Below are positions 28,124 through 45,117 of a stretch of DNA of 46,466 bases, in pieces. Each line of letters opens with the position of its first letter. Position 1 is the first letter of the stretch. The stretch covers positions 1 to 46,466 of the forward strand of contig JAUXNJ010000002.1 in NCBI GenBank assembly GCA_030682795.1, in the 5' to 3' direction. Position numbers and translations under genes: made by a program. Source of the DNA: Sphingobacteriaceae bacterium. GTDB taxonomy: Bacteria > Bacteroidota > Bacteroidia > UBA7662. The notes under the pieces are model-generated. The model saw only the letters and a list, made by a program, of their open reading frames with translations, had not been told where the DNA came from and made no database searches.

Positions 28124-29332
28124 TTAGATTTCGACGGGAAAAGGGTCGTTTATTCCTTTTTGTGCCTCAAAAAGCTTCATTTCATAGCTTTGCAGCAGAC
28201 ATTTCTCTAGCTCGGCTGTGATTTTTGTTTTTTCAAGGTCTTGTCCAATAAACACCAATTCGTTTTGCCGGTCACCCCATTGTTTGCTCCATTTACCTTC
28301 GATATAGGCTTGGTTTTCGACAAAGGCTGGGTACTGAATGCGGTCTTTGTAGGGCATGCTGCACCACCAAACGCCAGCTTTTTCGAGTCGGGAAGAGCCG
28401 CCAGCCTGTGAAAAGTTGAGTGCGTCGTTCGGACGGGAGGCCAGCCAAAACAGTCCTTTAGCCCGCAGGATGTTATTGGGATATTGCGTTTGTAAGTAAT
28501 TCCAGAAGCGTTCAGGATGGAAGGGGCGTTGGTCGCGAAATACGAAGGAGCCAATGCCGTACTCCTCAGTTTCGGGGGTATGGCCATCTGCTTCGAGCTC
28601 TTTTTGCCAACCTGCTGAATTTTGAGCTTCTTCAAAATCGAACAAACCAGTGTTGAGCAGCTCGTGTGGCGCTACTTTGCCAAATTGGGAGGCAATGATT
28701 TTAGCACCGGGATTCAGTTTATGGATGGCGGCTTGCAGCACACCAACCACTTCTGCTGGCACCAAATCGGTTTTGTTGAGGATGATGACGTTGGCAAACT
28801 CAATTTGGTCGGTGAGCAGATTCACAATGGTGCGGTAATCGCCTTCCATATCGGTGAGCTGGCGGTCTACCAAACGTTCGGCACTGCCAAAATCATTGAA
28901 AAAATTGAAGCAATCTACCACCGTTACCATGGTGTCGATGTAACTGAAGCGGGATAGGTCGATGCCTTTTTCTTCATCTACAAAAGAAAAAGTTTGCGCT
29001 ACAGGTACGGGTTCGCTGATGCCGGTGCTTTCGATGAGCAGGTAGTCGAACCGACCTTCGTTCGCTAGTTTTTCGACTTCAATCATGAGGTCTTCGCGCA
29101 AAGTACAGCAAATACAACCGTTACTCATCTCCACCAGCTTTTCTTCGGTGCGGGAGAGGGTGTGTTGCTCGGATACGAGGCGGGCGTCTACATTCACTTC
29201 GCTCATGTCGTTTACAATGACGGCTACTTTGAGCCCTTCTTTGTTGTGTAGGATGTGGTTGAGCAGGGTGGTTTTGCCCGCGCCTAGGAAACCGCTGAGT
29301 ACGGTGACGGGTAGTTTGCTGTTGTTTTTCAT
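28124..29332 (-). CDS. COG0523 G3E GTPase (CobW/ZNG1-type metal chaperone)
   Basis: GTPase of 402 residues. The P-loop GFLGAGKTT is at 14-22, the metal-binding CICC at 73-76 ([11 protein letters not shown]), then ESTGISEP and NKTD for Mg2+ and guanine, and a C-terminal CobW_C domain (about 255-400). Members with CxCC hand zinc or a related metal to client enzymes, often in zinc starvation. The start at 29332 is fixed by a promoter just upstream that overlaps the earlier frame. A Fur-family-like palindrome covers the -33 region, which favours zinc control. It is not near cobalamin genes, so a cobW role is unlikely. Confidence 0.9.
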
Positions 29333-29373: not shown

Positions 29374-29403
29374 CAAAGGTAAAGTAAATTTTCAATTATG
29401 CAA
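29374..29403 (-). promoter_or_regulatory. Promoter of the COG0523 gene
   Basis: On the minus strand TACCTTTG (29381-29374) matches TAnnTTTG, and a TTG (29403-29401) lies exactly 19 bp upstream, the usual Bacteroidota spacing. It is the best full promoter in the window. Confidence 0.7.
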
Positions 29404-29413
29404 CATTGTTGCA
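29399..29413 (-). promoter_or_regulatory. 7-1-7 palindrome on the COG0523 promoter (candidate Zur/Fur-family operator)
   Basis: TGCAACATTGTTGCA is a perfect 7-1-7 inverted repeat, the layout bound by Fur-family regulators. A second, overlapping perfect repeat CAACATTG-TTG-CAATGTTG covers 29401-29419. The site sits on the -33 element, so binding would block transcription. Zur commonly controls COG0523 genes. Confidence 0.5.
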
Positions 29414-29443
29414 ATGTTGGCTTTGAGCTTGAAGGATGTTTGT

Positions 29444-30229
29444 TTATTGCGGCAGCTTTTTGATTTTAGCCTGACTGGCGGCATCGAGCATGGGCCACAG
29501 TTCGGCGTTGTGGTTGTTTACGTAGAGGAAGTGGATGTTTTTGTCGGGATACTGCTTTTGGTAGTTGCGCATGCTCTTGAGGAGCTTGCGAGAAGGACGA
29601 ATCATGAAGTCGTTCCACATAAGAATGGCGTAATAATCGGCTTTGGGTAGGGTTTGTAAGGAGCCGCTAGCCGGAGAAAGGGGCAGCAAATGGGGCAAGA
29701 AGAAGTCCATCGGCAGTAAAAAGTCGTTCAGCTGGGCGATGTCGTTGGCTGGAGGAAATTGGTCGAAACTGCCCGCCACATTCCAGCGCATGGGGATGGG
29801 CGGGTCGAGGTAGCAGTTCACGAGTTTGAAAAGGGGGGTGCCTTTGGCATCGTAAAAACGAATTTGAACAGGCTGCAAATCGTCGTTGAGGCCTTTGCGG
29901 AGGCGCTTTTGCTGTAGACTGTCGGTAGCGGTTTTTGGCAAACTGCCGTAGCCTGTGCGGTAAAAGGCGATGGTTGCTTTATAAAACGAGGCGGTATCGA
30001 GCACATACGACTGTGCGGCAGGTAGCTTTTGACGCTTGAAGTCGCGTTGTACTTGCTCGCTGCTTTTCCAGGAGGGCGTGCTGTCTACCCCCAGTAATAC
30101 GCGATAGGCGATGGAACAGCCGCTGGCGGTGAACAAAATGAAAATGGCAAGTAAGCCTTTTAGTAAGTTGAACCGCTGAAGTTTGGATGGATGCAGATTC
30201 CTTGCCGTTGGTGTGTCGTTCTTATGCAT
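29444..30229 (-). CDS. Predicted lipoprotein, possibly thioredoxin-like
   Basis: Protein of 261 residues with a membrane segment and lipobox TASGC (Cys38), so probably lipid-anchored. The C-terminal part (YYAILMWNDFMIRPSRKL, then a helix and NIHFLYVNNHNAEL) resembles the core of a thioredoxin-like fold (strand, CxxC site, helix, strand), but the cysteine positions hold other residues. I do not recognise the family. It lies 68 bp after the acetolactate decarboxylase gene on the same strand and may share its transcript. Confidence 0.7.
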   Translation of the reverse strand: MHKNDTPTARNLHPSKLQRFNLLKGLLAIFILFTASGCSIAYRVLLGVDSTPSWKSSEQVQRDFKRQKLPAAQSYVLDTASFYKATIAFYRTGYGSLPKTATDSLQQKRLRKGLNDDLQPVQIRFYDAKGTPLFKLVNCYLDPPIPMRWNVAGSFDQFPPANDIAQLNDFLLPMDFFLPHLLPLSPASGSLQTLPKADYYAILMWNDFMIRPSRKLLKSMRNYQKQYPDKNIHFLYVNNHNAELWPMLDAASQAKIKKLPQ

Positions 30230-42831: not shown

Positions 42832-45117
42832 TCATTTTTGCTTTTTAAGGTTGTTATGAAAACTCTTATTTGGATAAACTGGCGCAGTAGGAATGTCCCT
42901 GGGTTCTTCCGCTATTTTTTTCTTTAAGAATTGAATGGCTGCTTCCAATTGTGCATCTTTTCCATTGAAAGTTTCGTAGGGTAGGTTATCTACTTCAATA
43001 TCTGGCACATGTCCTATGCCTTCTACTAGCCATTTTCCCTCAAAGTCAAAACCGCCATGCATGGGTGAGGTGGCAATTCCATTATCTGTAAGCTGATTTC
43101 CTGTGTGTAGCGCTATAAATCCACCCCAAGTGCGCATACCAATTGTAATGCCCAAACCAAGTCTCCTAAAACCTTCTGCAAATACTTCTCCATCAGATCC
43201 CGTTCTTTCATTCACGAGCACTACCATATGGGGTATTCTTTCAATGGGCTGGCCAGTTCTGTCAATTCTGTGCATCCAAATTTGCCTCATTAGCATTTGA
43301 AGCATGATTTCACTGATATAGCCTCCTTCGTTGGAGCGCATGTCGATAATGAGCCCTTTTTTATTGGCAACAGGAAAGTACTCCCTGTAGAAGTGAGCAA
43401 TGTCCCGATCATCATTGGCACTTTGATGAAGGTAACCTATTTCGTTTTCGCTATCTTTTTCAACTTTTAGTCTGTTTTTGTATTGCCAGTCACGGTAAAT
43501 CAACCAATATGGATCGGCCGATGTTTGAATTATAAAATCCTTAATTACTGTACCCCTTTTGATGGATAGCCTTACTTGTTTTCCGGCTTGATTAACCAGC
43601 AACTCGCCAATATCCATCGCTAGTAAAGCATCTTTACCATTTACTTTGGTAATGATATCGCCCTCTTTGATGTCGAGGTGAGGATCATCTAATGGCGATT
43701 TTCTCTCAGGAAAATCAGGGTCGGGCCTGTAGATGTAGTCAATTTTAAATCCTCCGTTCTTTTCATCCCTGCTGGTTTTAGCGCCTAAATTGCCAACGCC
43801 AATGCTTTTATCATCACTAGGCACATCACCCCCATATACATAAGCGTGAAGCACCGATAACTCTCCGATTAATTGAGCCAACACGTCATTTAACTCACTT
43901 CTGGTAGTAATGCGGTCAATAAAGGGCAGGTACTTCTGGTACATTGCCTCCCAATCTACACCATGCATGTTTTTGTCATAAAAATAATCGCGCTCCATAC
44001 GCCAAGCATCTTTGTAAAGCTGTTTCCAATCCGCTCGTGGGTTGAAAGCAAACTGACAGCTACTTAAATCAATTTCATCAGTTAGCGTTAGGATGTTTGT
44101 TACAGCATCGACCATGTAGTAGGATGGACCTTTTTTGATGAACAACTTTTTGCCATTTGGCGTGATGTCAAAATTATCAATCTCAGAAGCGATCGTAGCT
44201 AGTTCCATTTTGTTGCGTGAAATTTGTGCCGCTTTTAGATGAGGGTTGGCCATTGAGCCATTTTCGTTGGCTAATAGATAAATGGCCTGTTCGGTTACTT
44301 CAAGTTGATAGTAATTTCCAGAAGCAATAGGCACGGCCATCGTTCGGGCTTGAATGTTTGCGCTGTCAATGCGAACTACTACTTTACTTGCAGGTTGATC
44401 GTTGGTGGCATGCTCCTGGTTTAGCTCGTCTAATGCCCTGAATGGAGATAAAACCCCTTTTGTTAAGGCAACATGATACAATTTATGCACTTTATCCCAT
44501 CCCACCCCGCCAAGTCTTTGATTACGAGGACTGCCAGTTAAAGTGTTAAAACCCCTGTCAGATAAGAAATAAATAAATTTACCGTCAGGACTCCACTTCA
44601 CATTTGAATTGTTGGATCGGTCGCTGGTTAAGTCAAAAACAGCGCCATCGTTAACATTGTAAACTTTAATTTGTGTAAATCCAGTGAAGGCCTTTTGCAC
44701 AAAAGCCAGCCACTGACTGTCTGGCGACCACGCAAAATCTCGGATGCCTTGTTCGTTGGTGGATATTTTTTTTCGTTCTCCTGTTTGTACATTGAGCACG
44801 TACATATGTTTATCAATGTCATCAAAAGCTATCCATTTACCATCAAACGATGGGATACCTTCATAGCTCAGGGGCTTTAAGGCCTTGGATATGGGTTTTA
44901 CGCTGCTGGAGCCATCTGCCGCAAAGTGTACAAATTCGAATTCTCCACTTGCATCTGAAAGGGCGATGATGTTTCGGCCATCCGCTGAAAAAGTCGCATC
45001 TCGATAGCGAACAACGGCGTTGCTGGGGTCTGAAAATGCAATCGTTCTGCCTTTTTGAACAGGCACTACAAATACGCGTCCCCTTACGGTTACTGCCACT
45101 TTTTCGGGAGTGTTCAC
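42832..45117 (-). CDS. Tricorn-like S41 protease, 5'-truncated by an IS256 element
   Basis: The open frame gives 761 residues, but full tricorn-like proteases of this group have about 1,050-1,100 and begin with a signal peptide and a first propeller, both missing here. What remains: second beta-propeller (about 1-350, TolB-like FSADGRN, SPDSQW, WSPDGK repeats), the tricorn core (about 360-430), a PDZ domain (about 435-530, EGDIITKVNGKD) and the S41 domain with His424 (VLHAYVYGG), Ser641 (RTGSDGE) and a late EGIGHVPDIEV segment. The catalytic part is intact. The GTG start codon and next three codons lie in the IS inverted repeat, and an in-frame TGA stands four codons upstream, so this is probably a disabled gene fragment. 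Confidence 0.85.
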   Translation of the reverse strand: MNTPEKVAVTVRGRVFVVPVQKGRTIAFSDPSNAVVRYRDATFSADGRNIIALSDASGEFEFVHFAADGSSSVKPISKALKPLSYEGIPSFDGKWIAFDDIDKHMYVLNVQTGERKKISTNEQGIRDFAWSPDSQWLAFVQKAFTGFTQIKVYNVNDGAVFDLTSDRSNNSNVKWSPDGKFIYFLSDRGFNTLTGSPRNQRLGGVGWDKVHKLYHVALTKGVLSPFRALDELNQEHATNDQPASKVVVRIDSANIQARTMAVPIASGNYYQLEVTEQAIYLLANENGSMANPHLKAAQISRNKMELATIASEIDNFDITPNGKKLFIKKGPSYYMVDAVTNILTLTDEIDLSSCQFAFNPRADWKQLYKDAWRMERDYFYDKNMHGVDWEAMYQKYLPFIDRITTRSELNDVLAQLIGELSVLHAYVYGGDVPSDDKSIGVGNLGAKTSRDEKNGGFKIDYIYRPDPDFPERKSPLDDPHLDIKEGDIITKVNGKDALLAMDIGELLVNQAGKQVRLSIKRGTVIKDFIIQTSADPYWLIYRDWQYKNRLKVEKDSENEIGYLHQSANDDRDIAHFYREYFPVANKKGLIIDMRSNEGGYISEIMLQMLMRQIWMHRIDRTGQPIERIPHMVVLVNERTGSDGEVFAEGFRRLGLGITIGMRTWGGFIALHTGNQLTDNGIATSPMHGGFDFEGKWLVEGIGHVPDIEVDNLPYETFNGKDAQLEAAIQFLKKKIAEEPRDIPTAPVYPNKSFHNNLKKQK

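Follow-up and report, generated by a model that had tools for sequence, protein, structure and literature searches.

A Zur motif, ATGCAACnnnGTTGCAT, has been predicted in Desulfovibrio at two znuABC-zur operons (Genome Biol 2004, PMC545781, excerpted text), and COG0523 GTPase genes (yciC) stand under predicted Zur sites in Firmicutes, Proteobacteria, and Cyanobacteria (BMC Genomics 2009, PMC2770081), the section on these systems in the latter article naming no Bacteroidota. The Zur boxes of enterobacteria, Bacillales, actinobacteria, and cyanobacteria are palindromic sites of a Fur-family zinc repressor (PMC6103462), and Bacteroid-, Flavobac-, and Desulfovibrio are absent from the excerpted text of that review. 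As far as the excerpts of three further papers go, ZntR, not Zur, is described in Riemerella (PMC11960050), PgFur is the protein dealt with (PMC6613475), and Zur is mentioned for other bacteria only (PMC9976891). Our literature search, which covered open-licence papers, turned up no published Zur motif for Bacteroidota. The yciC-type operators of Firmicutes, Proteobacteria, and Cyanobacteria have other sequences, and the enterobacterial, Bacillales, actinobacterial, and cyanobacterial Zur boxes differ in bases from the site reported here. Bacteroidota promoters follow a consensus of −33 and −7 elements.

The site that we describe lies in a 46,466-nucleotide stretch of DNA from a Sphingobacteriaceae bacterium, referred to below as the window. 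It precedes a minus-strand gene (28124..29332, start ATG at 29332) encoding a protein of 402 aa with cobW and CobW_C domains and a GCICC stretch, i.e. a COG0523 GTPase with the CxCC motif, as the initial annotation had proposed. The protein matches the NCBIfam ZigA equivalog (NF038288) over its full length with 555.9 bits, short of the cut-off of 600; it is ZigA-like and is not filed as ZigA. Upstream of the gene, TGCAACATTGTTGCA (29399-29413, minus strand; TGCAACAATGTTGCA in the sense of the gene), a predicted Zur site, is the perfect 7-1-7 palindrome that had been claimed, the arms TGCAACA (29399-29405) and TGTTGCA (29407-29413) being 100% complementary and 1 nt apart. Read along the minus strand toward the gene, TGCAACAATGTTGCA is followed by 17 bp, then by TACCTTTG (29374-29381), a full match to the TAnnTTTG pattern of the −7 box, and then by the ATG, which lies 66 bp from the operator. 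The −33 TTG (29401-29403, minus strand) falls within the right half-site of the operator, and its spacing of 19 bp from the full −7 box was confirmed on the minus strand; both elements are assigned from sequence. Counted from the first operator base, the offset of the box is +32. The upstream gene (29444-30229) has the same orientation and ends at 29444, so that the COG0523 gene is the only one that the operator could serve.

In placing a CxCC COG0523 GTPase gene behind a predicted Zur site, this locus is like the yciC systems of PMC2770081. With the Desulfovibrio system, as excerpted in PMC545781, it shares the same 15-bp core, TGCAACnnnGTTGCA, a Fur-family regulator, and zinc genes downstream. 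Unlike in Desulfovibrio, which belongs to another phylum and has its sites at znuABC-zur, the motif here stands before COG0523, TonB receptor, MerC, and DUF4625 genes. It resembles the Zur boxes reviewed in PMC6103462 in being a palindrome of a probable Fur-family zinc repressor, whereas its TTGCA half-site, unlike theirs, falls on the −33 TTG of Bacteroidota and on the end of the −7 box.

A palindrome by itself is no evidence. Indeed, bare perfect 7-1-7 palindromes are not rare in the window (seven versus 2.9 expected, ∼2.4 times expectation), and the significance of this one comes from the recurrence of its sequence. In the 3.1-Mb genome, TGCAACNNNGTTGCA occurs exactly five times, as compared with 0.19 expected from base composition and none for the reversed control, and all five sites stand shortly upstream of start codons. 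Besides the COG0523 gene of the window, they precede genes for an ABC ATPase accompanied by two permeases of the DUF3526 type (C9), for a PD40 protein (C32), for an exported protein (C9:22493) that contains HETGHTWG and has no Pfam match, and for a DUF4625 lipoprotein (C40), the last having a second, one-mismatch site in tandem, 31 bp off. The target genes on C32 and at C9:22493 have no known zinc role, which counts against a Zur reading. Two of the genome's six one-mismatch sites overlap a perfect TAnnTTTG at −6 and precede genes for a TonB receptor and for a DUF4397 protein (C35). Another (C21:63295) lies inside a long ORF, and two (C15:66285 and C35:111326) were left out of the inspection. 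Matches with two mismatches or fewer number 135 in the genome, versus 64 for the reversed pattern. Unlike the Desulfovibrio operons, the only ZnuA gene of this genome has no convincing site, with just a 10/12 match at its start, which leaves its promoter unsupported as a target. As a separate observation, the PD40 protein is encoded by an independent 328-aa ORF (G000:C32:131-1117) and is perhaps a tricorn N terminus; a tricorn-protease-like protein (Tricorn_C1, PDZ, and S41) is encoded at 42832-45117 of the window.

The sequence also recurs in relatives. We analyzed 80 COG0523 loci, the best 80 of 590 confirmed relatives, all from named records and nearly all from Bacteroidota. Among these best 80, a site scoring at least 11/12 lies within 300 bp upstream of the COG0523 gene in 34, the best upstream scores being bimodal with 42/80 at 7-8. 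Anywhere in the locus, such a site is present in 65/80 (1/80 for the reversed motif) and absent from 15/80, and the 812,627 bases of these loci contain 101 matches of at least 11/12 versus one reversed. In a genome of the same genus (G005), the COG0523 orthologue has a site 28 bp upstream, and DUF4625-like lipoproteins with the site are kept in G001, G003, G005, and G006, the Pfam scan of these genus copies having covered that of G006. DUF4625-type lipoproteins, which are possible zinc-binding lipoproteins, recur behind the site in genus and family (G000:C40:21352-21397, L178, L185, L187, and L188).

The downstream families, each verified with Pfam on one or two of its members, comprise COG0523, MerC, ZIP, DUF1826, GTP cyclohydrolase I (FolE), phosphoribosyl-AMP cyclohydrolase (HisI), ABC ATPase, DUF4625, TonB receptor, NicO, P-type ATPase, SCO1, and pyridine-nucleotide oxidoreductase; five of the 20 downstream proteins of relatives that were scanned had no Pfam match over the cut-off. 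Several of these families (ZIP, FolE, HisI, and DUF1826, with COG0523) resemble the usual Zur target set. The site therefore recurs before zinc-related genes, whose lack of it had been named in advance as the outcome that would speak against zinc control. The proposed scan of zinc genes was borne out for ZIP, DUF1826, FolE, HisI, MerC, TonB receptor, COG0523, and the regulator gene, but not for the genome's own ZnuA gene or for zinc-free ribosomal proteins, no paralogue of which was found among the annotated downstream genes. A pyridine-nucleotide/FAD oxidoreductase (IIGGSYAGLSAAMALGR), grouped by a shared N terminus read by eye, was also seen behind the site at seven loci (L190, L196, L201, L203, L208, L216, and L220). 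At L142:613-2379, a single 588-aa ORF, adjoining a superoxide-dismutase-like gene, combines a ZnuA-type binding protein with an ABC ATPase (as judged by eye) and is without a convincing site.

The genome encodes two Fur-family proteins, one of 159 aa (C36) adjoining purA, which was recognized by eye, and one of 139 aa, rich in His and Cys (G000:C15:51471-51854). The latter, hereafter the C15 protein, matches PF01475 (8.9e-13), and its predicted structure (pLDDT 88.9) matches Fur/Zur/PerR. When a profile of 20 such regulators was compared with solved structures, the closest were Escherichia coli Zur (4mtd, 2.7e-11) and Mycobacterium tuberculosis FurB/Zur (2o03, 1.1e-10). Two CxxC pairs, C98/C101 and C134/C137, which we take to be structural zinc pairs, are invariant in the 20 aligned regulators. 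Cys80, nearly invariant in the 20 rows, is aligned to the Cys of YVLC in 4mtd and of YRRC in 2o03, presumably the regulatory-site ligand of those two Zur proteins; no Cys occurs at this position in the Fur row displayed (9ire). Structure comparison gave a tie between the two Zur proteins (Z 13.9, rmsd 2.8, 132 aligned; Z 13.6, rmsd 2.5, 132 aligned) and Fur (Z 13.0, rmsd 3.6, 133 aligned), and the first Foldseek rows for the model were PerR, so that structure search was set aside as a means of splitting Zur from Fur. With 28.2 bits against a cut-off of 167 for the E. coli-type Zur equivalog (NF008646), the C15 protein is not filed under that family.

The motif tracks this regulator. Of the best 80 of 590 COG0523 loci, 25 contain a Fur-family ORF that matches the C15 protein; in 14 of these 25, a site of at least 10/12, in many cases common to a divergent MerC gene, lies within 300 bp of the regulator start. 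In relatives, therefore, several zinc-related genes have the motif upstream, as does the regulator gene itself, which is expected of a Zur operator. The genome's own zur gene (C15) has no site of at least 8/12 in the upstream stretch checked, which speaks against autoregulation through the motif in this genome. Of 296 genomes of the class, 125 are regulator-positive (E < 1e-20) and 171 regulator-negative. Exact sites are present in 89/125 of the former, leaving 36/125 with none, versus 26/171 of the latter, which include seven genomes with Fur-family matches of E ∼1e-13 to 1e-14 that were set as negative after a gap in scores was seen. Regulator-positive genomes hold 170 exact sites (1.36 per genome; six reversed), and regulator-negative genomes hold 28 (0.16 per genome; 14 reversed). 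The association, uncorrected for relatedness, has an odds ratio of 13.8, with a Fisher p of 4e-23 that is exaggerated by the non-independence of related genomes. The expectation that this lineage has a Zur motif thus gained support on three counts, i.e. the motif exists, it tracks the regulator, and it has the same core as the Desulfovibrio motif. We also noted that some COG0523 loci hold another, divergent type of Fur-family protein, whose His region is shorter (L067:7846-8304, L069:2327-2758, and L052:6197-6601); at L069, a site lies 61 bp upstream of the gene.

The position of the motif relative to promoter elements was assessed at 120 sites with exactly one gene of at least 90 aa within 130 bp (three of 123 having been dropped as duplicates or cut off), in loci that had been chosen for COG0523 or the motif and with counts that ignore relatedness. 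A TAnnTTTG box is found at −6 in 35/120 sites (1.8 with shuffled flanks) and at +31 to +34, the class to which the window site belongs, in 29/120 (0.35 with shuffled flanks); 16/120 have a box elsewhere and 40/120 have none. These two offsets mean that TTGCA, as a half-site, supplies the −33 TTG or that the TG at the operator's left end also belongs to the −7 box. Close pairs of sites in the best 80 of 590 COG0523 loci are 36-40 bp apart in 22/24 cases, and a spacing of about 38 bp is just what puts an operator over each of the two boxes.

Could the palindrome have arisen by chance, or form a hairpin or terminator of the upstream gene? Perfect palindromes are common enough in the window, as noted above, and RNA at the operator can form a short stem, but the sequence-specific recurrence across the phylum, without an excess of the reversed motif, makes this extremely improbable. 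No terminator pattern is present, and the fold is unremarkable (z −1.45), which led us to reject the terminator/hairpin reading. Iron control by the 159-aa C36 protein would be in keeping with its Fur-family membership and its Pfam score, which is higher than that of the C15 protein, and Fur proteins bind similar short palindromes. However, the regulators that neighbor COG0523 genes with sites match the C15 protein (25 ORFs are retrieved by the C15 query, one of which is also weakly matched by the C36 query), and the annotated downstream genes are zinc-type and not Feo or siderophore genes. Iron control is therefore very unlikely.

We likewise give little credence to the idea that the C15 protein is the regulator but senses another metal in this phylum, such as nickel, manganese, or copper. 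The presence of NicO, SCO1, and P-type ATPase genes behind some sites is in its favor, NicO and P-type ATPase fitting nickel, cobalt, or efflux equally, and MerC is named for mercury. On the other hand, ZIP, FolE, HisI, DUF1826, and COG0523 occur together as in Zur regulons, and the solved relatives nearest by profile are Zur proteins.

Taken together, the recurrence, the co-occurrence with the regulator, and the site at the regulator's own gene in relatives strongly suggest that a zinc-sensing Fur-family repressor of the Zur type, in all likelihood the 139-aa C15 protein, uses the motif as its operator, with zinc-controlled repression of the COG0523 gene. Weighing against this are the 15/80 loci without a site of at least 11/12, the 36/125 regulator-positive genomes without an exact one, the missing sites at this genome's own zur and ZnuA genes, the structural tie between Zur and Fur, and the NF008646 score below its cut-off. 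The Fur-family-like (Zur) operator put forward by the initial annotation is supported as far as sequence can show, and the motif is most likely the zinc-starvation control site of Bacteroidota. In the mechanism that we infer, a zinc-bound Zur dimer would sit on TGCAACnnnGTTGCA and, because the right half-site TTGCA contains the −33 TTG, would prevent recognition of the promoter by RNA polymerase, keeping the predicted COG0523 metallochaperone off. When zinc drops, Zur would depart and the GTPase would be expressed along with the other targets, which in this genome may include the TonB receptor, the ABC system with DUF3526 permeases, and the DUF4625 lipoprotein. The GTPase might then hand scarce zinc to client proteins.

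With less assurance, we favor a wider reading, in which these sites would define a phylum-wide Bacteroidota Zur regulon whose operator is fitted to the phylum's own promoter code. TTGCA would act as the −33 TTG or complete the −7 box, one dimer would block one box, and pairs 36-40 bp apart would cover both. Such a regulon would define a group of proteins for capturing zinc at the envelope (TonB receptor, DUF4625 lipoprotein, MerC, DUF3526 ABC system, and FAD oxidoreductase) not previously assigned to zinc. Bacteroidota would thereby gain a testable zinc-limitation regulon and a binding motif, and both core elements of their unusual promoter would incorporate a predicted repressor site. It would also offer a handle on widespread uncharacterized families behind the site, i.e. 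DUF4625, the DUF3526 ABC systems, chromosomal MerC, and one family of FAD oxidoreductases.
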